Below, piece by piece: positions 16-64,000 of a DNA stretch of 64,000 nt (the first letter of the stretch is position 1; each line of letters starts with the position of its first letter). Origin of the DNA: Nannochloropsis salina CCMP1776 (Eukaryota; Sar; Eustigmatophyceae; Eustigmatales; Monodopsidaceae); NCBI GenBank assembly GCA_004565275.1, contig SDOX01000078.1, forward strand, positions 62,257-126,256, read 5' to 3'. The notes beneath the pieces are model-generated. The model made no database searches. It was not told the origin of the DNA and saw only the letters and a program-made list of their open reading frames with translations. The position numbers and the translations under genes were made by a program.

Positions 16-1791
16 GTGGATAAAAGTCTTTGGTACTGGAGATTATGGGATTTAATGCCTTACTCAATGCGTCACTTTGAATGACGCCGCGGCATACTAG
101 GGAGGTTGACAGGTTGGAGGGCCTTTCAACCGTCAAATAAAGTGAAACCTTTCATTTTTGTTGATCCTTGATATACACGTGGCACCAGAGCAATCTTTTG
201 GTACGTCTATGCGACAGAAACAAAGTGAAGCACCATGCCAGTTTTGAAGTTAGTCGACAAACTTGTCTTCCGCGCGCTACACAAGAACCGAAATTCGACG
301 GAAAAAAATTATCAAGATGTACCCGAGTTGTAAATACTGATGCTCATTTTGCTAGTTATGTGGACTGTGCCCTAATTATGTTCGCAATGCTTGCTTCTTC
401 ATTCGGTCAAAATCGTAATCTGAAAAATTTATCCGAAACCTTTTCCCGGCCTCTCTCTTGAAATATTTCTCACGACCATCACCTTTGATTAAAGTCCCTA
501 TAATCCCGAAAGAAGCTGCCTTTGTAAATCACTAATTTTACATCTGAGCGTGGCTCTGCATTACCCGGCAAAAATGTTCAGCATGAGTGCGCAGCTTGCT
601 TTGCCGACCAAAGGCGGCGCTATCTAGAGACGACTTTGCTTATATTGTCTTCATTTTTAAAAATTGCTCATGCAATTCATATAAAGATTTTTCTTCTTTT
701 TTTTCCGCAGTTTTTTTCGCACGCTTTTTTCGTCTTGACTTACCCACCCCCTTCGCCCCGCACTTGAAAATAAGGAACAACTTTTATCATTTCAGCTTTC
801 TTCCCATTTTAAGTAAGCCACGTATCCTTTCCAATTTTCATAAATCAATATGAAGAGAATCAAAAAGCACACACAAATATCCCATTATAAGTGCATGTGG
901 AATCCACTGGAAAGGAAGATGAAGGAAAAACAGCTTTGTCCTTTTTCCCTACTCCGCCGCCCCTACCTCTCTCACTCCCTTCGCTTTCTACTGATGCTAT
1001 TTGGCCATCCGCCCTTTCGCGTCACTTCTGACGTCCCAGAAAATGCCAAGCTTCTCTCCTAAAGAGACGGAATACGAGGTGAAAGGGGTCAGGCGGGAAT
1101 GAGAAAGACGGGGAGGTGTGGAAAAGCGACGAGTCAACGAGTAATTTCTTCGACCCATGGCCTTAAAAAGAGATTGTGAGCCTCTGCCGACGACGAAATT
1201 ATCGCACCATGCAAGAAGTTGATGAGGCACTGATGTTCCAATCACACAATTCTCTGAAAAAGGTCGGCCGGGAGAACCCAGGGAGAAGTCTGAAAGAACC
1301 GACGGAAGGCTTTCCTCTTCACATATCGATTCATCCCCATCTTTGTCCCCTCTTTTCTATTTTTCGCCTTCTGCCCGGCCTTACTCCCTCCCTGCCCTCC
1401 TCCCTCCCTTCTTTTCTTCCCACCTGGCCACAGGAACGTCCAATAGAAGACATCGATGCCCATGTAGCTGCTCCGCTTTGCTTTCCTGAAAACGAAGAAA
1501 AGGCAACAATAGGCATGAAGAGGAGAGGATGTGAAAAGAATCACCAAGGAGAAATCAGTATACCCCGGATCTACACGGACGGATATCAATCTTCTTCGAG
1601 TTGGGTCCTTCGCATTTTCAAACCAAAGAGAAGGGCAAAAGGAAAAGAAATAAAAAATAGGAAAACAGGGATAGCACAGGATAGGCCCACCTTGGGTATA
1701 AGTGATGGTCGACGTGATCGAGCTCTGCGAGGAGGTCGATCGTATAGGCCATGTACCACTGGTTGATGGGAACGGCATTGCACTACAAGGA
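16..1791. repeat. Left copy of a segmental duplication
   Basis: This stretch is closely similar, in the same orientation, to 3581-5837. Both start at 'gtggataaa' and both end at the same point next to 'gcactacaagga', after which they diverge abruptly. The left copy is ~1.78 kb and the right ~2.26 kb. The extra length in the right copy is a 327-bp insertion (3797-4123) and an internal tandem duplication (~4706-4960). The two copies flank a unique sulfotransferase gene. The 16-1000 part holds no gene I can support. Confidence 0.9.
1205..1791 (-). pseudogene. Orphaned 3' end of the desaturase-like membrane gene
   Basis: This is the left-copy equivalent of the last three exons of the gene at 5254-7481. 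The exon encoding QWYMAYTIDLLAELDHVD, the short exon with SSYMGIDVFYW and the terminal exon are all recognisable on the minus strand. Homology stops at the 3' splice site of the first of these exons, so the upstream exons are absent. In the terminal exon the left copy has two extra bases ('atcacacaat' against 'atcacaat'), which shifts the frame before the stop codon used in the right copy. The fragment has no start of its own and is most simply a truncated, decaying duplicate. It could still be transcribed antisense to or through its surroundings. Confidence 0.75.
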
Positions 1792-2087
1792 GTGTCAAAA
1801 CCATTATTTCTATATTGGCGTCAAGGTTGCTTTCACATTTCTAGAGACGGGAATATTTTGGTGTTAATAGGATCGACCCAAGTTTCGGATCTAATCTGAA
1901 TCTAGAAGTGGTCTGAAGTTCAAACTTTGAACGAGCTTTCGGAAGTTTCAGGAATAACGGTGATTGCTTTAATGTCAACAGTTTTGGGTAGTAGGGGTCA
2001 ATAATCTAATGTCCTTTCTTTCTCACTTTCTCACTTTCTCACTGTTTCTCCTCAAAATGAATTGTTCGTATTTTGAAGGTTATATGG

Positions 2088-2906
2088 ATGTCGATACATC
2101 CTTCAATATTTGCTCTCCCCATCAAATGGAGGAGAATATTCATACTGGTGACTCTACAACTCTTTGTCGCATTTATGGTAACACAAAATGGAAATTTTGC
2201 AAGCCCTCAGGCCACTGAAGATGTCCTTAGTGGAACCAAGGTCCGATACTTTGGTGTTGGTGCGAATAAGACTGGCACAACAAGTCTTGCGAGAGCCCTT
2301 CAAGAACTTGGCTTTCGTGTCGCTCCTCAATTTGATTACGAGATATTATTGCCGCACTGGATTAAAAGGAACTTCCAAGTCATTGTCGATCACGTTCGAC
2401 AAGATGAGAGTGATGCGTTTCAAGATGTACCCTTCAGTCACGACTTTACATACCAGGCATTGGACTTAGCCTTCCCAGAGAGCAAGTTTATCTTGACGGA
2501 GCGGTCCAGCTCTGATGTTTGGTTTGAGTCTTTGCGAAGTTTCCACGGAAAAGTGTTCAATGGTACAAAGATGATGACTGCTAACAATGGGACCACGTGG
2601 AACACGCCGACCATTTCCGATCTTAAGCAGGCGAACCTTACCTTTCCTGGTTTTATTTATAGCTGGGTCAAGTCTGTATTTGATCTCCCAGACAATGATG
2701 AGGATGCTAGCAAGCTACTCTACAATAAGGATCACTTTATTAGGTACTATGAGCGACACAACTTGGCAGTAAGATATTATTTTTCTAGTCGGCCTGACGA
2801 TCTGTTGGTACTAAATGTGGAAGACGATGACGCTATGGAAAGGTTATGTAGCTTTGTCGGCAAACCATGTCCCGGTCGACGCTTTCCTGATATTCATCCA
2901 TCTTAA
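2088..2906 (+). CDS. Type II membrane sulfotransferase-like protein
   Basis: A single-exon gene of 272 residues. Residues ~15-32 form one hydrophobic segment (ILVTLQLFVAFMV) behind a short basic N-terminus, as in Golgi type II enzymes. It is followed by GVGANKTGTTSLARAL, the 5'-phosphosulfate loop that binds the PAPS cofactor in the P-loop sulfotransferase family; the K-T-G-T-T-S signature is intact. Further on, LAFPESKFILTERSSSDVW matches the strand and 3'-phosphate-binding region of the same family, with Arg and Ser in the expected order. Several N-glycosylation sequons (NGT, NLT) fit a lumenal domain. The likely role is transfer of sulfate to a glycan or small acceptor; the acceptor cannot be told. 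The ATG at 2088 was chosen as the first ATG in frame just before the membrane anchor. The gene sits alone between the two duplicated arms. Confidence 0.8.
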   Translation: MSIHPSIFALPIKWRRIFILVTLQLFVAFMVTQNGNFASPQATEDVLSGTKVRYFGVGANKTGTTSLARALQELGFRVAPQFDYEILLPHWIKRNFQVIVDHVRQDESDAFQDVPFSHDFTYQALDLAFPESKFILTERSSSDVWFESLRSFHGKVFNGTKMMTANNGTTWNTPTISDLKQANLTFPGFIYSWVKSVFDLPDNDEDASKLLYNKDHFIRYYERHNLAVRYYFSSRPDDLLVLNVEDDDAMERLCSFVGKPCPGRRFPDIHPS

Positions 2907-3580
2907 TCAAACCTGAGGTCCTTTGGCGAGGAGAGTAGAGAATAATAACGATTTTCTTTTTTGTCGTTGAAGCAAAATGTACGTGCATCAACAACTGCCG
3001 TTTAATCCTTTAAACACCAGCTGCACGGCCTTGGTCCGGTAGCTCACCCCATTCCACCTCACCCTCGAGATAATCCACGGCTCGAAATTCAAATAACTTC
3101 CATTGATGTCCCACTTATACATTCATTTAGCTTTAGCACAAACATTCAGACATATATACACGCATGTAACCCTGCAAATATTTTACGCAGGTATGTTGGC
3201 CTTGGGAATGCGGAAATATGGTTCACCTCGTCACCAGGAAAGAAATAGCGCTTCATGGGTTACATGCATCCATGGAACGTCAGCCTGACACAAAAATTTC
3301 TCAGTCTCTACTCCTGATCATGAATGTTCAATCTAAGCATTTCCAGGTAGAGCACGGTCTTGGAGGTATTTACGGTTTCAGTATTGCTCCTTAAAGCACG
3401 CAGGCCTCAAGCTTTCGTAATCGGATTCTAGGGACAGAGCCTCCAGAAGAGATGCGTAAATCTTCGGTTTTCCATGGCGGGAAAATAAGCACAGGCTTGT
3501 GTTCAATCAGCAGCTTTCGCCTTTCTGGTACGCAGGTATGCACTCAGCATTTGAAAGTTCAAATAAATTGTTTTTATTCG
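2907..3580. other. Intergenic, no feature seen
   Basis: Between the sulfotransferase stop and the right duplication arm I see only short, unconvincing frames and no recognisable RNA gene or repeat. Confidence 0.5.
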
Positions 3581-3796
3581 GTGGATAAAGTCTTTGGCAC
3601 ACTGATGATGACGGAAGTTCATGAGATATAATGCCTTACTCGGCGCGCTATTGTGAATGACGCCGTGGCATACTAGGGAGGTTGACAGGTTGGAAGGTCT
3701 TTCACCCATCAAGTAAAGTCAAACCTTTCAGTCTAATTGCTCCTTGAGAGAGACCTAGGATCAGAACAATATTCTTATTCGTCTACGCGGGAGAAA

Positions 3797-4123
3797 TGTT
3801 GTGTGAATTTTTCACCACAATCAATATTCTCCCTGAGAATTTTCACCAAAGATTCACCCCAAAAGCTCCTACCAAAGACACCGGTCGACGCCAGTCCTGT
3901 TGTTTTATAATGATATATCATTTAAAATGATTAGGTGGACGCACATCATGATATTTCACTGCGGTGATCTACTGCGAATCGTTATACACCTTCCCTACCA
4001 CCCGGTGGTGACGACTGTAAAACGGCTGTAACGGTAATCCTGTGTAACTGCTCTCGACCTCCTATCGCCGATCCTTTCTACCCTTCGTGTCATAATCATG
4101 TCATTTCTATACTCGCGTCTAGA
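3797..4123. mobile_element. 327-bp insertion in the right duplication arm
   Basis: Aligned to the left copy (position 220/221, 'gacagaaa|caaagtg'), the right copy carries 327 extra bases between 'gggagaaa' and 'caaagtgaag'. The right end of the insert (4089-4120) closely matches 60715-60746, where it adjoins a break in pseudogene homology. This suggests an insertion sequence of a dispersed family, or a deletion from the left copy. No coding frame or clear terminal inverted repeat is visible. Confidence 0.45.
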
Positions 4124-4705
4124 CAAAGTGAAGCACTATGCCAGTTTTGAAGTAAGTCGACAAACTTGTCTTCCGCGCGCTGCACAAGAACCGAAAATTA
4201 TTCCGATCAAAAACATTCATCAAGATTTACCCGAGTTGGTAAGCCTGATTTTCCATTTGTTTGTTAGGTGGACTGTGCCCTAAAAATGTTTGCAATGCTT
4301 CTTTATCTCGATCGAAATTGAATTCTGAAAAATTTATCCGAAACCCTTTCCCGGCCTCTCTCTTGAAACATTTCTCGTTACCATCACCTTTGCTTACAGT
4401 CCCTATAACCCCGAAAGAAGCTGGCCTTTTTTAATCACTCATGTAACATCTAAGCAAGGCTCTGCATTACCCGGCAACATACATGCAACATAAATGCGCA
4501 GCTTGCTTTGCCGACCAATTGCGGCGCTATTTAGAGATGACTTTGCTTACATTGTCTCATTTGTCAAAATGTGTTCTTGCAACTCACATAAAGAGGAATA
4601 CTACAAGAAAATTTCGTTCGCACGCTTTTTCCGTCTTGACTTACCCACACCCTTTGCCACGCACTTGAAAAGAGTAAGGAAGGCTGTCATCATTTCAACT
4701 TTCTT

Positions 4706-5253: not shown

Positions 5254-7481
5254 TTATCGCACCATGCAAGAAGTTGATAAGGCACTGATGTTCCAATCAC
5301 AATTCTCTGAAAAAGGTCGGCCGGGAGAACCCAGGGAGAAGTCTGAAAGAACCGACGGAAGGCTTTCCTCTTCACATATCGATTCATCCCCATCTTTGTC
5401 CCCTCTTTTCTATTTTTCGCCTTCTGCCCGGCCTTACTCCCTCCCTGCCCTCCTCCCTCCCTTCTTTTCTTCCCACCTGGCCACAGGAATGTCCAATAGA
5501 AGACATCGATGCCCATGTAGCTGCTCCGCTTTGCTTTCCTGAAAACGAAGAAAAGGCAACAATAGGCATGAAGAGGAGAGGATGTGAAAAGAATCACCAA
5601 GGAGAAATCAGTACACCCCGGATCTGCACGGACGGATATCAATCTTCTTCGAGTTGGGTCCTTCGCATTTTCAAACCAAAGAGAAGGGCAAAAGGAAAAG
5701 AAATAAAAAATAGGAAAACAGGGACAGCACAGGATAAGCCCACCTTGGGTATAAGTGATGGTCGACGTGATCGAGCTCTGCGAGGAGGTCGATCGTATAG
5801 GCCATGTACCACTGGTTGATGGGAACGGCATTGCACTACAAGGAAGGAAAAAGAAAGGACAAAGGGGTGGAAAGGATGGTTAGGGTGAGCCAGGGCGGTG
5901 GAGAGAGGTACGAGGGGAAAGGAGGGTGCTTGTGGTTAAGGCCAGGCGTGTCTTCATTTTGGCAGGATGAGGGTGGAGAAGAATCTTGTCGCTGTAAAGT
6001 CAAGACAGCCATCTTTTGAACGCTTCTTATCTCAAAGATCTGCCTCTATTACCGTCTCCTGCATTTCAGTCCCCTATTGTCCTATTCCCCCGCCTTTCCT
6101 CCCTCTTGTCCCCCCACGCCCACCTTATAGCGCCCGTCGGGAGCAGGCGGCTCGGAGGGTTTCCCGTCGTCATGGCCTTTGAAGTTCAACGTCAGGGTGA
6201 TAAAGAGCCATAGACCCTGCGGACCAAAGAGACGTGCCGAAGGGAACGAGGTCAGTCCACCCCTGGCGCGAGTTCGCCGCCTCCCAGTATGCAAAGGGTT
6301 CATCGGGACAAGTCCCTCCGCCTCAGCGTCTTGAGCCAAAGAGGACCCGGTTATCATCTGACACCTACCGTGAAGTTGATGTGGAGCAAGACTGGATCGA
6401 AAAGGGGGAGGGGGTGGATAGGAGGCAACGTCGGAGTGGGGAGTGAGGAGACTGGGCGGGTGGGTGTGAAGACGGAAAGAAGGAGAGGGGGAGAAAGGGA
6501 AAGGAAAAGATGATAGGCAGGTTAGAACGCACTGTTATTAAGCCCCCAATATTTGTAGCGGATGGCAAGCTCGATGGTAGGGACCAGCCAAGTGCAGCAC
6601 TCCACCAACGCCATCTCCCAGGTCTGGGGGGAGGGAGGAAGGGAGGGAGGGAGGGAGGGAGGGAGGGAGGGAGGGAGGGAGGGAGGGAGGGAGGGAGGGA
6701 GGGAGGGAGGGAGGGAGGGAGGGAGGAGGGAGGGTAGAGAGGGAGGGAAGAAGGGAGGTCGGTCTTACATGCGGGCCAGAGACGACAGGCTTCAGCAAGG
6801 TGGACAAACGCCGAGGATGAAGAGGGAGAGGGAGGGAAGGAGGGAGCGAGGGAGGTAGGGAGGGTACCTGGTGTGAAAAGAAGCGGTGTAGGAGTCCCCA
6901 CCCCATGATGGCCCGCCAGTAGGCGTGGCAGAAGGCGAAAAGAACGCCCTTCCACGTGGGCCCATGGCCGTACCAGGTGAGGAGAAACTGTGCAGAAAGG
7001 GCTGATGGGACAGTATGAGGGAGGGAAGCTCGTTGGAGTAGGGAGGGAGAGGATTCAAAAGGCTTTGTGCGAGGACGGATCGAGCCAGGCCTCGCTTCTC
7101 CCGGCCAGGGGAGGGACGAGTCGCCTTCCTTACCCCTTCCCTCCCTTCCTCCCCTTCCTCTCCTCTTTTTTCCAATTTTTAGGCACTGTATTCATTCCGA
7201 GGCTTGAGCTGCGAGGTGGAAGGGAAGGTCAACCTGGCAATACATATTTCTCCAACCCTCCTTTCCCTCCCTCCCTCCCGCCCTTCCTCCCTCCCTCCCG
7301 CCCTCCCTCCCTGCATCCCTGCATCCCTGCATCCCTGCATCCCTCCCCACTTACAGGCTGCCAACAGCAGGAACATGGGAAAGTTAAGGAGCCAGTTGAA
7401 GGTGTCCACGTAAGGGAAGAGGCTCAAAAGGTAGGAAGGCGTCCCAGTGGAGCGGATATCCTCGTCGAAGGCGTCGGTCTC
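5254..7481 (-). CDS. Polytopic membrane protein with desaturase-like His boxes (N-terminal exon unresolved)
   Basis: Seven minus-strand exons join with consistent phases: 7355-7481, 6868-7001, 6533-6623, 6369-6391, 6124-6216, 5744-5835, 5477-5538 and a terminal exon 5342-5254 (eight segments in all). They give ~285 residues. Hydrophobic segments include FNWLLNFPMFLLLAASL, the stretch ending GLLHRFFSHQ, MALVECCTWLVPTIELA, and ILLHINFTGLWLFITLTL. Two histidine clusters resemble membrane di-iron enzymes: HRFFSH (HX4H) and HVDHHLYP (HXXHH, like the last box of front-end desaturases). A second HXXHH box is not evident, so desaturase or hydroxylase is a suggestion only. The N-terminal exon upstream of ETDAFDED was not located with confidence. 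The 3' exons are duplicated as a pseudogene at 1205-1791. Long (GGGA)n on the plus strand fills the introns. Confidence 0.6.
6629..6735. repeat. (GGGA)n microsatellite in intron
   Basis: About 107 bases of near-perfect GGGA tetranucleotide repeat on the plus strand, lying just upstream (sense) of the 3' splice site of the exon at 6533-6623. On the sense strand of that gene it is CCCT, i.e. an extended polypyrimidine tract. Confidence 0.95.
7309..7345. repeat. (CCCTGCAT)n tandem repeat
   Basis: Four to five copies of an 8-bp unit CCCTGCAT next to CCCT tracts, beside the donor site of the exon 7355-7481. Confidence 0.9.
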
Positions 7482-21981: not shown

Positions 21982-24900
21982 ATGCAGTCTCTTCGAATTG
22001 CCAGCGTCGCTGGTCTTTTGCTAAGCATGGCATGCGCTCCAGTGTCGGCGGAGATCCCCGGTGGAGCTCTTCGCGGTGGGAACAGCACTACTCGGAGTTT
22101 GGCGCCTCAGGTAGGACAAAAGAAGGAAGGGAAAGGGTCACGGGGTCTCTAGAAAGGGAAGGAAAGACCGACGTGGGTTTGGAGAAAGGGTGGAAGTTTT
22201 ATCGGGAGTGTGATGACGTGCACGAAGCAAAGAGGGAGGAGAGGAAAAGGGGAAGGGGGAGAAGACGGGAAGGCTGAGGGAAGTGAGAAGTTGAGACAGA
22301 GTGAACGACGCAAGTCATGGAACGTGCCGAAATAAGTCGTCGGGATAGATGCTTCATGTCAGGGTGGCGTCGGAATTCAAGGGATTGCTTGACGGGTGCA
22401 TGGTCCGGAGGGGCATCGTCAGGAAGAAGGAGAGGCGACCTCCCATCCTCCCTCCCTCCCTTACTCCCTCCCTCTTTCCCTTTTTTTTCTTTTTCTCTCC
22501 TCTCTCTCTACTCCCTCCCGCCAGTGCCTGTACAAGGACACGTTGGAGTGGACCTCGTCTCCCAATGGGGCCGTGCTTCTGAATGGAAACGCCTTCCACA
22601 TCAAGGGTAAGTCACCCTGGGAAGGGAAGAGAGAAGTAGTGAAGCGCATTGGCCTGTGAAGGATTTTATGGAACGGCAAGCGTAGATAGGGAGGATATGT
22701 GGAATGGGAGGAAGGGAGGAAAAGCCTGAGAGGGGGGGGAAGACAGGGGAAGAAAGGGAGTCTGGGGCGAAGGGTGGAGGGAGGGGGAGAGGGCGGCATG
22801 GAAGCTCTCAAAAGTCAAGGCGGACTAAGTATCCTCGTCTCAAGAGGCTCCCTCGACCTCCTCTTGGCTTTTGATCGTCTGCACTCATTCAGCCTCCCTC
22901 CCGCGCTCCCTCTCTCCCTCGACGCAGGCATCTCCTGGTTCGGAATCGAGAAAGGGGAGGAGATGCTCCACGGGCTCAACAAACGGCCCATGGGCGATAT
23001 CTTGGACTTCGTCAAGGTCTCCTTCCCTCCCTCCCTCCCCTCCTCCCTCCCTCTCTCTTCACCTCTATCCTTCTCTCCCGCCTTCCTAGGCTCCTCTTTT
23101 TTGCGCCCCCCCCCTTGTCTCTCTTTCTCTTCCTCGCGTCCTCCACCTTTCCATCCCTTCCAGGATCCTCCTTGCCAACCGTTCGACTAACCATTTCCCT
23201 CCCTCCCTCCCGCCCTCCTCTGCTCCCTCCCTCCCCTCCTTTGCCGTCTACTTTGCTTCAGACCAAGTTCAACGTCATCCGGGTTCCCTATTCCGTTAAA
23301 TTCGCCCTCTCTGACCCGCTCACGAAACGGCCGGACCGTTACATCGTTGGCTTCGGACTTGAGGTAAGCCTCTGCCCCTCCTTCCATCCCTCTACAGGAC
23401 TATCCTCCTCACCTTTGCCGTTCCTTCTCCTTCTTTTAACCCTTTCCTTCTTTGTTCTCTCTGACATAACGGTAGTATCTCAAGCCCTTCCTCCCTTCTC
23501 TCCCTTCCTCCCTCCCCTTCCCCTCCTGCCCCCAGGACAAAACTTCCTTCGAAATTCTCGACATATTCGTGGCGGAGTGCGGGAAGCGAGGAATCTTCAT
23601 CATGCTCGACCAGCACGACATTGTGGGTGAGAAGGCGGAGCTGTGGTACGAGGTACGGAGGGCGGGGGGAGGGGAGGGAGGGAAGCAGGGAGGGGAGGGG
23701 GAAGACTTTTCCAATCGAAGGCACTCGAGATAACTTGGGATGAATACCGGGAGGGGCACGGACGGAAGGGGAAGAAGGAGGAACAAGGCCCATGCCTGAG
23801 ATTACCAACCTCAAGCACGGTCGGACTTCTCAACACAGAACCATGTGTTCCCGCGGCTCGCTTACCGCCCTTCCTCCCTCCCTCCCTCCCTCCCTCCCTC
23901 CCTCTGATCTTTCCCAGGGGGTCTACACGGAGGAGGACAGCATTCGGGCCTGGGAGGTCATGCTGGGCCGTTACGTCAACAGCTACAATGTTTTCGCCGC
24001 CGACTTGCGGTCCGTTCTCCCCTCCCTCCTTCCCTCCCTCCCTCTCTCCCTCCTTCCCTTCTTCCCTTCCTCCCTTCCTTCTTTCACCTTGTGTTTCTGT
24101 CCTCCGCTTGATTTTCTCTTGTCTCTGTCAAGGGCACGCTGTCGAGGACACAAGCCTCCCCTCCCTTCCTAACCCTCCCTCTCTCCCTCCCTCCCTACCT
24201 ACCTACCTACCTATCTACCTATCTACCTACCTCCTTCCCCAGCAACGAACCCCACGGCCTAGCCTCCTGGGGAGAGTCCAATCCCCTCACCGACTACAAC
24301 CACTACTACGAACGCTTGATCAACAGGCTCGCTGCCAAGTACCCAGACTGGAAGGTGAGGGCTTCTTTTCCCTCACTCACTCCCTCCCGCCCTCCCGTCC
24401 TTGCCCTCTGCCGATAGATAAGGCTGATGGAAGGAGAGGGAGTGAGGAGATCACACGAAAAGGGACGAGCTCTGAAGGATCCTGCTTGCTTTTCCATCGC
24501 CAAAAGGACAATGTCCTGACTTCTACCTTCCTCCCTCCCTCTCTCCCTCCCTCCCTCCCTCCCTCAGGGTCTGTGGCTGGTAGAAGGAACCCAGTACAAC
24601 AATGAGGGCTACGAGCCGCCCGTCCCTCAGTGGTGGGGAGGTACGTCGACAAGGGAGGCAGGGAGGGAAGGAGGGAGGGAAGGAGGGAAGGAGGGAGGGA
24701 AGGAGGGAAGGAGGGAGGGAAGGAGGGAAGGAGGGAAGGAGGGAGGGAGAGAAGGAGGGAGGGAAGGAGGGAGGGANNNNNNNNNNNNNNNNNNNNNNNN
24801 NNNNNNNNNNNNNNNNNNNNNNNNNNNNNNNNNNNNNNNNNNNNNNNNNNNNNNNNNNNNNNNNNNNNNNNNNNNNNNNNNNNNNNNNNNNNNNNNNNNN

Positions 24901-26276
24901 NNNNNNNNNNNNNNNNNNNNNNNNNNNNNNNNNNNNNNNNNNNNNNNNNNNNNNNNNNNNNNNNNNNNNNNNNNNNNNNNNNNNNNNNNNNNNNNNNNNN
25001 NNNNNNNNNNNNNNNNNNNNNNNNNNNNNNNNNNNNNNNNNNNNNNNNNNNNNNNNNNNNNNNNNNNNNNNNNNNNNNNNNNNNNNNNNNNNNNNNNNNN
25101 NNNNNNNNNNNNNNNNNNNNNNNNNNNNNNNNNNNNNNNNNNNNNNNNNNNNNNNNNNNNNNNNNNNNNNNNNNNNNNNNNNNNNNNNNNNNNNNNNNNN
25201 NNNNNNNNNNNNNNNNNNNNNNNNNNNNNNNNNNNNNNNNNNNNNNNNNNNNNNNNNNNNNNNNNNNNNNNNNNNNNNNNNNNNNNNNNNNNNNNNNNNN
25301 NNNNNNNNNNNNNNNNNNNNNNNNNNNNNNNNNNNNNNNNNNNNNNNNNNNNNNNNNNNNNNNNNNNNNNNNNNNNNNNNNNNNNNNNNNNNNNNNNNNN
25401 NNNNNNNNNNNNNNNNNNNNNNNNNNNNNNNNNNNNNNNNNNNNNNNNNNNNNNNNNNNNNNNNNNNNNNNNNNNNNNNNNNNNNNNNNNNNNNNNNNNN
25501 NNNNNNNNNNNNNNNNNNNNNNNNNNNNNNNNNNNNNNNNNNNNNNNNNNNNNNNNNNNNNNNNNNNNNNNNNNNNNNNNNNNNNNNNNNNNNNNNNNNN
25601 NNNNNNNNNNNNNNNNNNNNNNNNNGGCAAGGACCAAGTCGTCCAGTACAAGCTCGGGGAGTGGCTGAAGGAGAAGTGCATGTCCAACAACGTCTGGTGG
25701 GCCCTCAACCCCGGCTCCGATGACACGGGCGGCATCCTCGGGGTCGCGTCCTCCCTCCCTCCCTCCCTCCCTCCCTCCCTTCCTCCCTCCTTCCTTCCCT
25801 CCTTCGTTCCTTCCCTCCTTTTCTCTTCCATCCTCCCTCTTTTTTGCCTTTCACCCGTCCAGTCCTCTCTTCCTTCACTCCTTCGCCTTCTTCTTGCGAT
25901 GGGAATTTTCTCTTGCCTTTACCCTCAACGTCCCTATCCTCGACCCACCCAAGTCTGACGTCCCCTCCCTCCCTCCCTCCCTCCCTCCCTCAGAACGACT
26001 GGACCTCCGTGGACTATGTGAAGATGAACCTCCTCGACAACGTCCAGCCCAACCCGACCAGGGTGCAATACGTCACCAAGGATCAGGTTTGGCCGCCTCC
26101 ATTCCCCCCCTCTTTCCCTTCCTACCGCATCTTTGCTCCCCCTTCGTTCCCCGCGCTCATTACGGTCCCCTTTTCCCCTCCCTCCCTCCCTCTCTCCCTT
26201 CTTCCCTCCCTCTTCTCCCTCTACGCAGATTTGTATGGACTGGGGGGCCTTCAGCAACCCGAACTGCAAGGCCTGA
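21982..26276 (+). CDS. Secreted GH5 cellulase (endoglucanase-like), interrupted by assembly gap
   Basis: Exons: 21982-22110, 22525-22606, 22928-23016, 23262-23363, ~23536-23652, ~23920-24007, ~24243-24353, ~24568-24640, then an unsequenced gap, then ~25626-25740, ~25995-26085 and ~26228-26276. The N-terminus SLRIASVAGLLLSMACAPVSA is a signal peptide. The body is a glycoside hydrolase 5 TIM barrel: FNVIRVPYSVKFA (strand 2 Arg), GIFIMLDQHDIVG, and AADLRNEPHGLASWG, the NEP block holding the acid/base glutamate, then the active-site Trp segments VWWALNPGSDDTGG and NDWTSVDY. The nucleophile glutamate exon falls in the gap. The expected role is hydrolysis of beta-1,4-glucan in wall remodelling. The stop is at 26274-26276. 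Confidence 0.88.
24196..24236. repeat. (CTAC/CTAT)n microsatellite
   Basis: About ten CTAC or CTAT tetranucleotides in an intron of the cellulase gene, directly upstream of the acceptor for the exon containing the catalytic NEP motif. Confidence 0.9.
24777..25625. other. Assembly gap (849 N)
   Basis: A run of 849 N bounded on the left by a long (GGGA)n tract. It falls between cellulase exons ending near PVPQWWG and starting at GKDQVVQYK. By comparison with GH5 enzymes, one or more exons including the catalytic nucleophile should lie here. Confidence 0.98.
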
Positions 26277-59930: not shown

Positions 59931-59937
59931 TAATCTC

Positions 59938-60712
59938 CTTGTCGCCCTACTGGGGTTTGCAAGCATTTTTACCGCCGTCTCTCAAGATTGTCCGGGCCTC
60001 CTCCTCAAGGCCAAAGTTACGCCGAGCGCTAAACGTGGCATCCTTGCAGGAAAGGACCAGGCCAGGCCCGCCATTACCTTGACCAGCAAAGAGCCCATCG
60101 ATAACCTCGAGTTCCAATAGAATCTCCCAAATGGCTTATCGATCGAACGAACAGCCATGTGTCCGTCCCCCAAGCCTTCTACCTCTCCAGAAATCGTTAA
60201 ATATGCGGATGGAACGACTGTGATCTACTGGCTCAACATTGCATTCACCAAACGTAAGGGTGGGAAACGCCGCGTCCGGATCAAGGTAGAAGCTGATGAG
60301 TGTGCCCCTGCCACGTTGGGGGTGGATGCTTTCGCTTACGCAGTAAATGCTACAGGGGCCACGTGCGTTACGCCGCAGCCAAGTCTGCAATCGTAAAAGT
60401 GCGCTTCTCGAAACTCAAAAAAGCCACGACTTGCGCGCCGACAGCTCCCACCATCAATCCCATTCAGCCTTTTGTGCTTGTTGGCGAGGGACAGCGATTT
60501 TCTCAAGGGGGGCGCCTGGCTCTTTTTCGGGACCGTCGTCTGTCGGGGTCCCTGGGAAGCAACATGCAAGGAGCCGTCGCTGCTCTGAAACGTACTGGAG
60601 ACAGGCCCCTGCAATCAATCGATACCCCTGAGGGTTAGGGTTAAGTATATTGCTCGCTGAATGCGGGACAGGCAACACCTTTCTATTTAAGCTGGAATAC
60701 TGTGACAAGCCA
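59938..60712 (+). pseudogene. Pseudogene of the terminal Asp-box-repeat gene
   Basis: Matches the first ~260 codons of the gene at 61084 over its whole length: GFASIFTAVSQDCPG (signal region), then LTSKEPIDNLEF, AFTKRKGGKRRVRIKVEADE, VDAFAYAVNATGATC, QPFVLVGEGQRFSQGGRLAL and LQSIDTPEG. It is broken by an in-frame TAG at 60118-60120 (where the intact gene reads CAG-type Gln/Leu), a frameshift near 60385 and two further stops near 60636-60645. Homology ends abruptly after 'acaagccagc' at ~60714, at the boundary with a sequence shared with 4089-4120. No Asp-box repeats follow, so the repeat half is absent. Confidence 0.88.
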
Positions 60713-60714
60713 GC

Positions 60715-61083: not shown

Positions 61084-63486
61084 ATGAAAGACTTATCGTG
61101 CGTTTTCCTCTTCGCTCTTCTGGGCTTTGGAAGCATTCTCACCACCATCTCTCAAGAGTGTCCGCGGTTTTTCCTAACGGCTAATGTTAGGCCAAATCCT
61201 CGGCGTGGGATCGTAGCGGGCAAGGGAATGGCTAAGATCACGGTCACGCTGAAGAGCAACGATCCCGTGGACAACGTGGAGTTTCAGTTGAACCTACCGG
61301 ACGGGCTTTCGGTCGAGCAAACTGCAATGCGTCCGTCCTCGAAGTCCTATACACCGCCGCAAATTGTTGAGGATGCGGATGGAGTGACAGCTATTTCCTG
61401 GCAGGGTCTCGCTTTCACCAAACGCAAGGGGGGCAAACGCCGCTTTCGCGTCAAGGTGAAGGCTGACCAGTGTGCCCCTGAGACGCTCGCGGTGGACGCT
61501 TTCGCTTACCTAATAAATGCTACAAACACCTCGTGCATGACGCCGCTGGCCAACCCCGCCATCGTAAAAGTGCGATACATGAAACGCAACAAAGCCGCAA
61601 CGTGCGCGCCCACACCAGCTCCTACTGTCAATCCTACGCAGCCTTTTGTGCTCCTTGGTGAGGGCCTACGATTCTCTCAAGGGGAGCGACTGGCCCCCTT
61701 CGAGGACCGTCGTCTTTCCTTGCACACTGGAATCCATAGGCATGATGGCATCATCGCCCGCTACCATCCTGAAGATCGACAGCTGCAATCCATCGACACC
61801 CCGGAGGCTTGCTATGAATACTGCTCGCTGAACGGGAGCGAGGACGTACCATTCCTCTTTAGCTGGAATACGGTGACCAGCCAGTGCTTCTGCTGCGCCG
61901 GGGTGTGCACACCCCTCATCGTCGACCCTGATTACAACGTGTACGAAGCGCTCTTACCCAGAACGCTTCCTCCGACCTCCATCCCTACTACTGCAGCGCC
62001 TCCGACGGCTCCCCCAACACCGATACCGACAGAATTGCCTACTCCAGGACCCACTCGTACCCCTACCCAAGCACCTTCAACGACTCCAACGGCTTCCCCA
62101 ACACCGACACCTACATCACCCTGGACGGAGCAAACCGCAGCTGGTTCCCGTAGCTGGCGGTCGATCGCGTCCTCGTCGAATGGCACGGTACGTGTTTGCA
62201 TGCAGGCCATGACACAAGGGGCACAATGCCCCTGTCCTCAATGGTGGTTGCCTCGTGTGTGCATGTCTGGTGAGGGGTCGCGATGCGATGCTCGATATGA
62301 CACATCCTGGTCGACTACCCATCCCATCACGCACAGAATCTTGCCGCCGCGGTGTTCCAAGGCTATATCTATACGTCGACCAACTCGGGCGTCAATTGGA
62401 CGGAGCAAACCGCCGCTGGTTCCCGCAGCTGGTCGTCGATCGCGTCCTCGTCGGATGGCACCGTACGTGTTTGGATGCAGGCCATGACGCAAAGGAAACG
62501 ATGCCCCTGTCCTCGATGGTGGTCCCATCGTGTGTGCATGACTGGTGAATGGTTGTCATGCGATGCTCGATCTGACGCATTCTGGTTGACTACCCATTCC
62601 ATCATGCACAGAAACTTGCCGCCGTGGTGGATGGAGGCTATATCTATACGTCGACCAACGCAGGCGTCAATTGGACGGAGCAAACGAGCTCGGGCTCACG
62701 TTTCTGGATATCGATCGCGTCCTCGTCGGATGGCACCGTACGTGTTTGGATGGAGGCCATGACGCAAGGGGCACGATGCCCCTGTCCTCGATGTTGGTCC
62801 CATCGTGTGTGCATGACTGGTGAATGGTTGTCATGCGATGCTCGATCTGACGCATCCTGGTCGACTACCCATTCCATCACGCACAGAAACTTGCCGCCGT
62901 GGTGTTTAGCGACTATATCTATACGTCGACCAACTTGGGCGTCAACTGGACGGAGCAAACCGCAGCTGGTTCCCGTATCTGGAACTCCATCGCGTCCTCG
63001 TCGGATGGCACGGTACGTGTTTGGATGCAGGCCATGACGCAACGCAAACGATGCCCCTGTCCTCGATGGTGGTCCCATCGTGTGTGCGTGTCTGGTGAAT
63101 GGTTGTTATGCGATGCTCGATCTGACGCATCCTGGTCGACTACCCATTCCATCATGCACAGGAACTTGCCGCCGTGGTAAATGAAGGCTATATCTATACG
63201 TCGACCAACGCAGGCGTCAATTGGACGCAGCAAACGGACGCTGGTCTCCATAAATGGCGGTCGATCGCCTCCTCGTCGGATGGCACGGTACGTGCTTGGA
63301 TGCTGGCCGTTTCATAAGGTGCACGATGCCCCTGTCCTCCAAGGTGGTCGCATCGTGTGTGCGTGTCTGGTGAGGGATCGCCATGCAAAATGCTCGACCT
63401 GACGCATCCTGCTCGACATGATATCCCATCATGCACAGAACCTCGCCGCCGTGGTTAATGGAGGCTCCATATGGACCTACGCCTAG
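61084..63486 (+). CDS. Secreted protein with exon-encoded tandem Asp-box-like repeats
   Basis: Six exons: 61084-62187, 62337-62462, 62612-62737, 62887-63012, 63162-63287, 63439-63486; 551 residues. The start at 61084 gives a signal peptide (LSCVFLFALLGFGSILTTIS). Exon 1 encodes a beta-rich domain with a basic core (FTKRKGGKRRFRVKVKADQC), a Cys-rich segment after LQSIDTPEACYEYCSLNGSE resembling PAN/WSC-type modules (unproven), a Pro/Thr linker (TPIPTELPTPGPTRTPTQAP) and the first half repeat. Exons 2-5 are each exactly 126 bp, phase 0 at both ends, and encode 42 residues of the type LAAVVDGGYIYTSTNAGVNW then TEQ...SIASSSDGT. S-T-N-x-G-V-N-W matches the Asp-box (S-x-D-x-G-x-x-W) of BNR/sortilin-type beta-propellers. 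Likely extracellular and adhesive or glycan-binding; function inferred only. Confidence 0.85.
62120..63470. repeat. 275-bp tandem array of exon plus intron units
   Basis: Each unit is a 126-bp exon plus a 149-bp intron (the last intron is 151 bp). Introns begin GTACGTGTTTGGATG or a close variant, include ATGCCCCTGTCCTC and end CACAG. Introns are as similar to each other as the exons, indicating recent unit duplication or ongoing homogenisation. Confidence 0.95.
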
Positions 63487-63504: not shown

Positions 63505-63548
63505 AGAAGAATTAGGGAACTAAGTCACACCTCTCCCCACCTGGCCCT
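63505..63548 (+). repeat. 44-bp direct repeat, inner copy
   Basis: Identical to 63790-63833: AGAAGAATTAGGGAACTAAG at the left end and CCCCACCTGGCCCT at the right end. It lies just after the last gene; 63549-63789 is AT-rich and non-coding. Confidence 0.95.
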
Positions 63549-63789: not shown

Positions 63790-63833
63790 AGAAGAATTAG
63801 GGAACTAAGTCACACCTCTCCCCACCTGGCCCT
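63790..63833 (+). repeat. 44-bp direct repeat, outer copy at the telomere junction
   Basis: The second copy of the 44-bp sequence, directly abutting the first telomeric repeat. Just before it is a short tandem GATTTTTAACA x2. Confidence 0.95.
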
Positions 63834-64000
63834 GTTAGGGTTAGGGTTAGGGTTAGGGTTAGGGTTAGGGTTAGGGTTAGGGTTAGGGTTAGGGTTAGGG
63901 TTAGGGTTAGGGTTAGGGTTAGGGTTAGGGTTAGGGTTAGGGTTAGGGTTAGGGTTAGGGTTAGGGTTAGGGTTAGGGTTAGGGTTAGGGTTAGGGTTAG
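63834..64000 (+). repeat. Telomere, (TTAGGG)n
   Basis: About 28 perfect TTAGGG units to the edge of the window. The G-rich strand runs 5' to 3' outward, the orientation of a genuine right chromosome end. The unit is the ancestral eukaryotic type, found in many stramenopiles. Confidence 0.99.

Follow-up and report, generated by a model that had tools for sequence, protein, structure and literature searches.

What is the gene that lies beside the telomere in this part of the Nannochloropsis salina CCMP1776 genome, and what does its array of equal-length exons do? The window, the whole 64,000-nucleotide stretch of contig SDOX01000078.1 that was analysed, ends in telomere repeats, and the gene in question occupies positions 61084-63486 of the plus strand. 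It is considered here to belong to a family of secreted, diversifying recognition proteins associated with telomeres and probably placed at the cell surface or in the cell wall; this reading is judged probable, with real room for doubt. An unvarying N-terminal module followed by a Pro/Thr-rich stalk would carry a variable C-terminal domain, which in this gene would be an Asp-box-type beta-propeller encoded blade by blade in separate exons. Comparison shows that arrays of this kind grow, shrink and are homogenised as whole exon-plus-intron units, and such gains and losses are harmless to the frame because the exon phase is symmetric. Roughly seven codons in each blade, located in the B-C and D-A loops, are kept different between blades and, again by comparison, ectopic recombination between chromosome ends, with breaks in the repetitive linker, places different domains behind the same N-terminal module. 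The ligands might be microbial or viral, either glycans or surface proteins, or, as a second guess, might be those of other cells of the species.

Gene structure and the blade-per-exon array

The gene begins with an ATG at 61084 and has six exons, with a product of 551 residues. Its parts are as follows.

61084-62187, plus strand: exon 1, 1104 nt
61084-61155, plus strand: putative signal peptide, residues 1-24 (from the translation, by eye)
61156-61962, plus strand: shared N-terminal module, residues 25-293 (found at 51 genome loci; 12 aligned)
61963-62121, plus strand: Pro/Thr-rich linker, residues 294-346, with a repeat at 84-bp spacing
62122-62187, plus strand: opening half-blade made of strands D and A, where exon 1 ends
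62188-62336, plus strand: intron 1, 149 bp
62337-62462, plus strand: exon 2, 126 bp, one blade unit
62463-62611, plus strand: intron 2, 149 bp
62612-62737, plus strand: exon 3, 126 bp, one blade unit
62738-62886, plus strand: intron 3, 149 bp
62887-63012, plus strand: exon 4, 126 bp, one blade unit
63013-63161, plus strand: intron 4, 149 bp
63162-63287, plus strand: exon 5, 126 bp, one blade unit
63288-63438, plus strand: intron 5, 151 bp
63439-63486, plus strand: last exon, 48 nt with the stop, closing half-blade (strands B and C)

All junctions are in phase 0, and each of the five introns reads GTACGTG...GCACAG. An earlier, sequence-only reading of the window had described four exons of exactly 126 bp in phase 0-0, separated by introns of 149 bp (four) and 151 bp, at 0.35 kb from a telomere; the re-derived exon model gives the same figures, and the gene end lies 348 bp from the telomere repeats. 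Tandem Repeats Finder reports 62122-63466 as 4.9 copies of a 275-bp period (85% matches, score 1846), a score which argues that the array did not arise by chance. That the introns are misread coding sequence was considered and ruled out: unspliced read-through of the array meets stops in all three frames, and these segments are absent from an intronless relative (IMG/VR contig L047). The spliced array protein aligns with this relative over 203 residues at 68% identity, without a gap at any exon junction and with two gap positions inside one blade. When a propeller closes, half-blades from both chain ends (strands D and A with strands B and C) join into one blade; since exon 1 and the last exon hold half a blade each, the gene has five blades.

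Each 42-residue exon would correspond to one blade of an Asp-box-type beta-propeller. Structure prediction of the repeat domain, proposed earlier as a check, was carried out with AlphaFold2 on L047; it gave a seven-bladed propeller of 28 strands (7 x 4), with a predicted local distance difference test score (pLDDT) of 93.4 and a predicted template modelling score (pTM) of 0.91. A Foldseek search with the L047 model returned Ycf48 as best match (E 3.4e-15). By sequence, the best matches of the array to solved structures were antibody chains (E 0.0034 and weaker), which are not credible, and Ycf48 appeared only at E 0.79.

The assignment of one Asp-box-like repeat to each exon stands as far as one blade per exon is concerned, but the term Asp-box is loose, as Asn replaces Asp. 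Where Asp-box (BNR) propellers have SxDxGxTW, all four full units of the gene have STNxGVNW, and the closest Pfam hit to BNR reaches 20.9 bits, below the cut-off of 27. The paralogues fit the motif; over 34 aligned family units the position is Asp in 23 and Asn in 11. The gene therefore probably works like an Asp-box propeller, although it lacks the Asp.

On the look of residues 1-24, the protein is putatively secreted. The N-terminal module consists of a part rich in predicted strands followed by a Cys-rich region (CYEYCSLN...SQCFCC). Pfam searches with this protein and with one paralogue gave no match to this module, and its profile found no relative among solved structures (one match, at E 0.38). 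An AlphaFold2 model of the module made from the window sequence alone was poor (pLDDT 48), with the Cys-rich part unresolved.

Related arrays and the unit of amplification

The assembly searched is a single one of 26.5 Mb in 103 contigs. Eight further arrays of the Asp-box unit are present in it, three of which are intact, namely those at the starts of C78 (7 blades, behind a different N-terminal domain), C23 (6 blades) and C70 (7 blades). The array at the start of C26 has 7 blades and a stop in unit 1, that at the end of C70 is decayed, and that at the end of C4 is cut by the contig end. No N-terminus was found in front of the arrays at the start of C41, where units 2-5 share one extra frame-breaking nucleotide, and at the end of C7, where one unit is out of frame; these two (L009 reverse complement 623-1999 and L014 2232-3620) are relics or possible sequence donors. 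Five Asp-box genes have both an N-terminus and a complete array, and these have 5 (here), 6, 7, 7 and 7 blades. An unrelated N-terminal domain (MRRALSLLALGITLALTAAQPTMTL...) precedes a 7-blade Asp-box array in L010 (reverse strand, 6743-7417), with a second, broken-looking copy of that domain about 1.2 kb upstream, and in L027 (C6:926000-931261) pieces of Asp-box units alternate on both strands, like inverted tandem fragments.

The units are regular throughout. The boundary between them is fixed (..SSDGT followed by KLAAVV..), 30 of the 39 called Asp-box exons are exactly 126 nt, and 19 of 39 introns are 149 nt. For the intron-distance analysis, and for the codon analyses below, 27 of the 39 Asp-box units (6 arrays) and 52 of 66 units of a second type (7 arrays) were used; C41, the C70 end, units with stops or of other length, and partly covered or strongly diverged second-type arrays were left out. 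The nearest unit by intron distance lies in the same array for 17/27 Asp-box and 40/52 second-type units, and the C41 units are near-identical, with a within-array intron difference of 0.062. Because four successive C41 units share the extra nucleotide, the exon-plus-intron unit is what is amplified and homogenised, with the frame kept where exons are symmetric. Together with the within-array nearest introns, this bears out the earlier suggestion that whole exon-plus-intron units are gained and lost.

The second repeat type follows a nearly identical N-terminus and also has one unit per exon, here of 44 residues and 132 nt in phase 2-2 with 88-bp introns (exons exactly 132 nt in 61, and introns 88 bp in 52, of the 66 called). 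With two halves counted as one unit, the fully covered arrays of C17, C64 and C33 have 7 units and those of C31 and C49 have 14; those of C1, C41 and C44 have 7 each, where one donor per array was inferred from a double-length gap. Arrays cut by a contig end or telomere (C7, C62) and partly covered or irregular ones (C37, C69) were not counted. In all 8 fully covered arrays the number is thus 7 or 14, so free gain and loss of units is not the rule in this type, and the multiples of seven suggest closed seven-bladed rings. The variable repeat number proposed by the sequence-only reading is seen among the Asp-box paralogues, while the fully covered second-type arrays keep to 7 or 14. The second-type repeat has no credible Pfam match, and among viral contigs 13 stretches fit a pattern for such an array, none of which was confirmed. 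The third C-terminal kind has no introns and matches SBBP propellers (PF06739; 43.4 bits in the C25 repeat, above the cut-off of 20.5, E 3.2e-11).

Hypervariable codons and their predicted place on one propeller face

An alignment of 34 of the 39 called Asp-box units shows that seven codons per blade carry most of the variation, and both types have about seven such codons per unit. To keep selection and measurement apart, each array was held out in turn, and the hypervariable codons measured in it were those picked on the remaining arrays. For the Asp-box type, first- and second-position differences were 0.481 at hypervariable and 0.125 at other codons, against 0.222 at fourfold sites and 0.204 in introns; for the second type, the values were 0.419 and 0.072, against 0.090 and 0.084. 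In the gene at 61084-63486 alone they were 0.571 and 0.067, against 0.191 and 0.130. Hypervariable codons exceeded introns in 6/6 Asp-box and 7/7 second-type arrays, on average 2.4-fold and 5-fold. Mere relaxed constraint was ruled out as the source, because the differences exceed those at neutral sites. Conservation of introns beyond the neutral level was likewise ruled out, given 0.204 against 0.222 at fourfold sites and, between arrays, 0.253 against 0.269. Mutation targeted to adenine, as by diversity-generating retroelements, was looked for in base make-up and codons only, and the variable sites are mostly not A-based triplets.

On the L047 model, Asp-box codons 7, 8 and 10 map between strands B and C, codons 26, 27 and 31 between strand D and the next A, and codon 33 to the start of A. 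In propellers the B-C and D-A loops share the top face, and the Asp-box hypervariable codons are thus predicted to fall on one face. We infer that these codons diverge beyond the neutral level through diversifying selection, by which the top face would bind varied ligands. The larger variation in the family lies in these codons and in the exchange of whole C-terminal domains described next, which displaces unit number from the main place that it had been given before.

Exchange of C-terminal domains

Three kinds of repeat domain (Asp-box, second type and SBBP) occur behind one and the same N-terminal module. In a tree of 19 of the 51 N-terminal loci (C25 is absent from it), the five Asp-box N-termini do not form one clade (approximately unbiased test, p 9e-52), and at least six changes among the three C-terminal kinds are required. 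For instance, the tree rows of C17 (second type) and C78 (SBBP) do not differ, and the DNA of the two is 99.05% identical over 2835 bp ending in the linker. Similarly, C4 (Asp-box) and C7 (second type) are 93.6% identical over 2372 bp ending in the linker. The Pro/Thr-rich linker is hence the break point of domain exchange in these relatives, and comparison of paralogues shows that C-termini have been exchanged there. C17 and C64 are 95.9% identical over 4296 bp including upstream DNA, which indicates that larger end segments are exchanged too. The N-terminal module was also seen before Hint-like, lipase-like, second Cys-rich, collagen-like (GATGATG) and pure Pro/Thr-rich parts (L029, L030, L032, L034-L038), where all these labels were given by eye.

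The telomeric setting

That the gene has a telomere-side setting had been read from the window, and the wider family agrees: among the matches listed, at least 20 of the 51 N-terminal loci lie within 10 kb of 31 telomeric ends, where about 0.6 would be expected. The corresponding binomial tail (1e-25) is rough and treats the loci as independent, which they are not. Counted by chromosome end, 18 of these 31 carry an N-terminus or an array no more than 10 kb away, among the matches listed. The list of 31 telomeric ends may be incomplete, and some of those on C12, C40, C55, C76 and C79 may be internal; C2:76438 and C26:62055 were excluded as internal.

Distances were read at 12 telomeric ends, all picked for carrying the family. 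In nine, the nearest family match lies 223-774 bp from the telomere. At the C41 end it lies at 2302 bp by that search, a diverged second-type array of C41 being nearer. In the C62 end (L020) the telomere cuts a second-type array, with the nearest match 3 bp away, and in the C100 end (L026) it cuts an N-terminal module, with the nearest match 14 bp away; both look as if broken ends had been healed inside family members.

The other features around the gene are the following.

59935-60713, plus strand: disrupted N-terminal-module paralogue, upstream of the gene (amino acid identity about 57-61%, internal stops)
63505-63548, no strand assigned: 44-bp segment after the stop, an exact repeat beside the telomere
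63790-63833, no strand assigned: the other, identical copy of that 44-bp segment, abutting the telomere repeats
63834-64000, plus strand: telomere (TTAGGG)n, contig end

The wording of the broken copy is closer to the C26/C23/C70 type than to the live gene. The 44-bp repeat flanking the telomere may be a trace of end repair; at the C41 start there is a like 59-bp exact repeat at the telomere junction, and no comparable non-telomeric repeat was seen in 10 other ends read. The telomere motif matches that reported for Microchloropsis gaditana (PMC8570151). The spliced leader published for that species (PMC8570151) has 11 exact copies and one with a single mismatch in the assembly, some of them clustered on alternating strands at C43:15794-18599; as the cited part of that report gives 239 spliced-leader genes for M. 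gaditana CCMP1894, the 12 copies here may reflect collapse of repeats in assembly. Judged by this leader, the genome is likely, though not certainly, that of M. gaditana or a close relative of it. No tRNAs or Rfam families were found in the 64-kb window, in which about 24600-25800 reads as N (X in translations) and may be a gap.

Weighing the explanations

Several results weigh against a family of recognition proteins. Among the matches listed, 13 of the 31 telomeric ends have no family member within 10 kb and 31 of the 51 N-terminal loci are not near a telomeric end. We know of no lectin or immune activity for this family, and C17, the clearest product of a swap, is out of frame at the linker junction, so that this product may be dead. 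The Asp-box fold was predicted on the seven-bladed relative L047, so that for the five-blade protein it is putative, as is a propeller fold for the second type. Five blades stand here against 6-7 in relatives and 7 in the intronless ones, so the propeller of the gene at 61084-63486 may not close; for WD units, the cited part of PMC2873952 holds that fewer than 6-7 hardly form a propeller. A closed propeller in this five-blade gene is presumed in the preferred reading. Codon 17 is fairly variable (1.83 bits) and yet lies on the other face. The ratio of nonsynonymous to synonymous differences (pN/pS) at hypervariable codons, which for this measure were chosen from the same arrays as were measured, is just 1.33 in both types and falls below 1 in the gene at 61084-63486 (0.96), C7 (0.82) and C31 (0.95). 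It is low because synonymous differences are also raised at these codons: Asp-box fourfold sites there differ by 0.333 (n=66) against 0.215 elsewhere, and local hypermutation may be at work in that type. In the second type, fourfold sites at hypervariable codons are not raised (0.040, n=250, against 0.092 elsewhere).

The raised synonymous differences would suit a quite improbable alternative, a functionless set of decaying and recombining subtelomeric copies whose variable codons are simply free of constraint or prone to hypermutation. A number of members are indeed broken: C41 has frameshifts and C26 a stop in unit 1, the C70 end has decayed, C17 loses its frame at the linker, telomeres truncate C62 and C100, and the copy at 59935-60713 is disrupted. 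However, lost constraint cannot take differences above the neutral level, and 2.4 and 5 times the intron level were observed; constraint is seen at the other codons (0.125 and 0.072, lower than neutral or close to it), and frames are intact in the gene at 61084-63486, C78, C23, the C70 start and several second-type genes. The idea put forward from the window, that exon gain and loss in the array switches or varies a surface protein by contingency, draws on the symmetric exons, on the 5, 6, 7, 7 and 7 blades of the five Asp-box genes, and on the near-identical C41 units (intron difference 0.062). With 7 or 14 units in every fully covered second-type array, and no strain or cell-to-cell variation seen in what is one assembly, it is regarded as very unlikely.

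Rather unlikely, in our view, is that these are cell-wall or matrix glycoproteins whose propellers are glycan-binding structural parts, diversified for wall polymers and without a role in recognising other organisms. The N-terminal module would then be a general extracellular unit, as its presence on collagen-like, Hint-like, lipase-like, Cys-rich and Pro/Thr-rich parts suggests, but a structural role calls neither for blades that diverge beyond the neutral level nor for domains recently exchanged at chromosome ends. Diversifying recognition proteins remain the preferred reading, with a probable surface location and recognition as the putative function. If it is true, a third repeat fold would join LRR and TPR, so far the folds of hypervariable exon-modular stramenopile receptors, and such receptors would be placed outside the cell and at the telomere. 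Because two array types in one genome show exon-per-repeat organisation with different phases, it becomes testable whether binding faces are generally diversified in this manner, with the frame kept. Blade number (7 or 14) would be marked as a brake on copy-number change, and a small, culturable, transformable alga would be available for measuring rates of array change.

Comparison with known systems

Among the literature records listed, none describes this family or blade-per-exon arrays in an alga. The same 42-residue blade occurs in intronless propellers of the IMG/VR contig L047 (68% identity), a Patescibacteria metagenome-assembled genome (MAG; L039, 46%) and an Akkermansia MAG (L040, 48%); unlike the gene at 61084-63486, these have 7 blades, no introns and unrelated host proteins. 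L047 is variable at the same loops as the algal family, and at 505-4143 it encodes a 1212-residue protein with two seven-blade propellers between poly-Ser stretches. A search for Asp-box blades in named phages gave no match. Newly amplified symmetric beta-propellers are known to arise by single-blade amplification, including in the Asp-box group, with many disrupted copies and, in a silk moth, one amplified single exon (PMC9218822, in the parts cited here); those parts report neither a blade-per-symmetric-exon family nor telomeric domain swapping, unlike the present case.

By description, homology aside, the family also resembles the var, VSG and trans-sialidase genes (those of Trypanosoma cruzi included). 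These subtelomeric variant antigens are telomere-side multigene families of variable extracellular proteins, but a free-living alga, unlike their bearers, has no host to evade. A bolder version of the preferred reading, which is possible and is offered only tentatively, is a telomere-driven combinatorial recognition repertoire, with a constant secreted stem, exchanged repeat domains, two homogenised exon-per-unit arrays and diverse binding-face codons. It would be a propeller counterpart of lamprey variable lymphocyte receptors (VLRs) and brown-algal receptors, directed against viruses or bacteria or serving allorecognition.

M. gaditana is a stramenopile, like the brown algae. As in brown-algal ROCO-LRR and NB-ARC-TPR genes, there is one repeat per exon with fixed length and phase (126 bp 0-0 and 132 bp 2-2 here); the passages cited describe one repeat per exon, a fixed 72 bp and phase 2 for the ROCO LRR arrays, and positively selected variable sites on the binding face of these candidate immune receptors (PMC11378527, citing Zambounis 2012). 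Diversifying selection on the binding face would be shared, appearing here as an excess over neutral sites in held-out arrays, with weaker pN/pS. The brown-algal proteins are open LRR or TPR solenoids on ROCO or NB-ARC, whereas propellers on a putatively secreted stalk are found here; there are two repeat types that look unrelated, one of them in sets of 7 or 14 units, C-termini are exchanged and the setting is telomeric. The nine Pfam matches up to E=10 of the protein from 61084-63486 include no ROC, COR, NB-ARC, LRR or TPR, and no HET or NACHT.

The last two bear on the hnwd (het-D/E/R) NLR genes of Podospora anserina, which have highly conserved WD40 repeats and selected codons in the top loops (PMC2873952, in the part cited). 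Concerted evolution and variable top-face propeller residues (here codons 7, 8, 10, 26, 27, 31 and 33) are common to both. The hnwd products are intracellular HET-NACHT-WD40 proteins, in contrast to Asp-box-type and other propellers encoded blade by exon with introns, behind a putative signal peptide and an N-terminus without a Pfam family. The family thus appears to work like the fungal WD40 repertoires and the brown-algal exon-modular receptors but, as HET/NACHT and ROC/NB-ARC are absent, is a member of neither.
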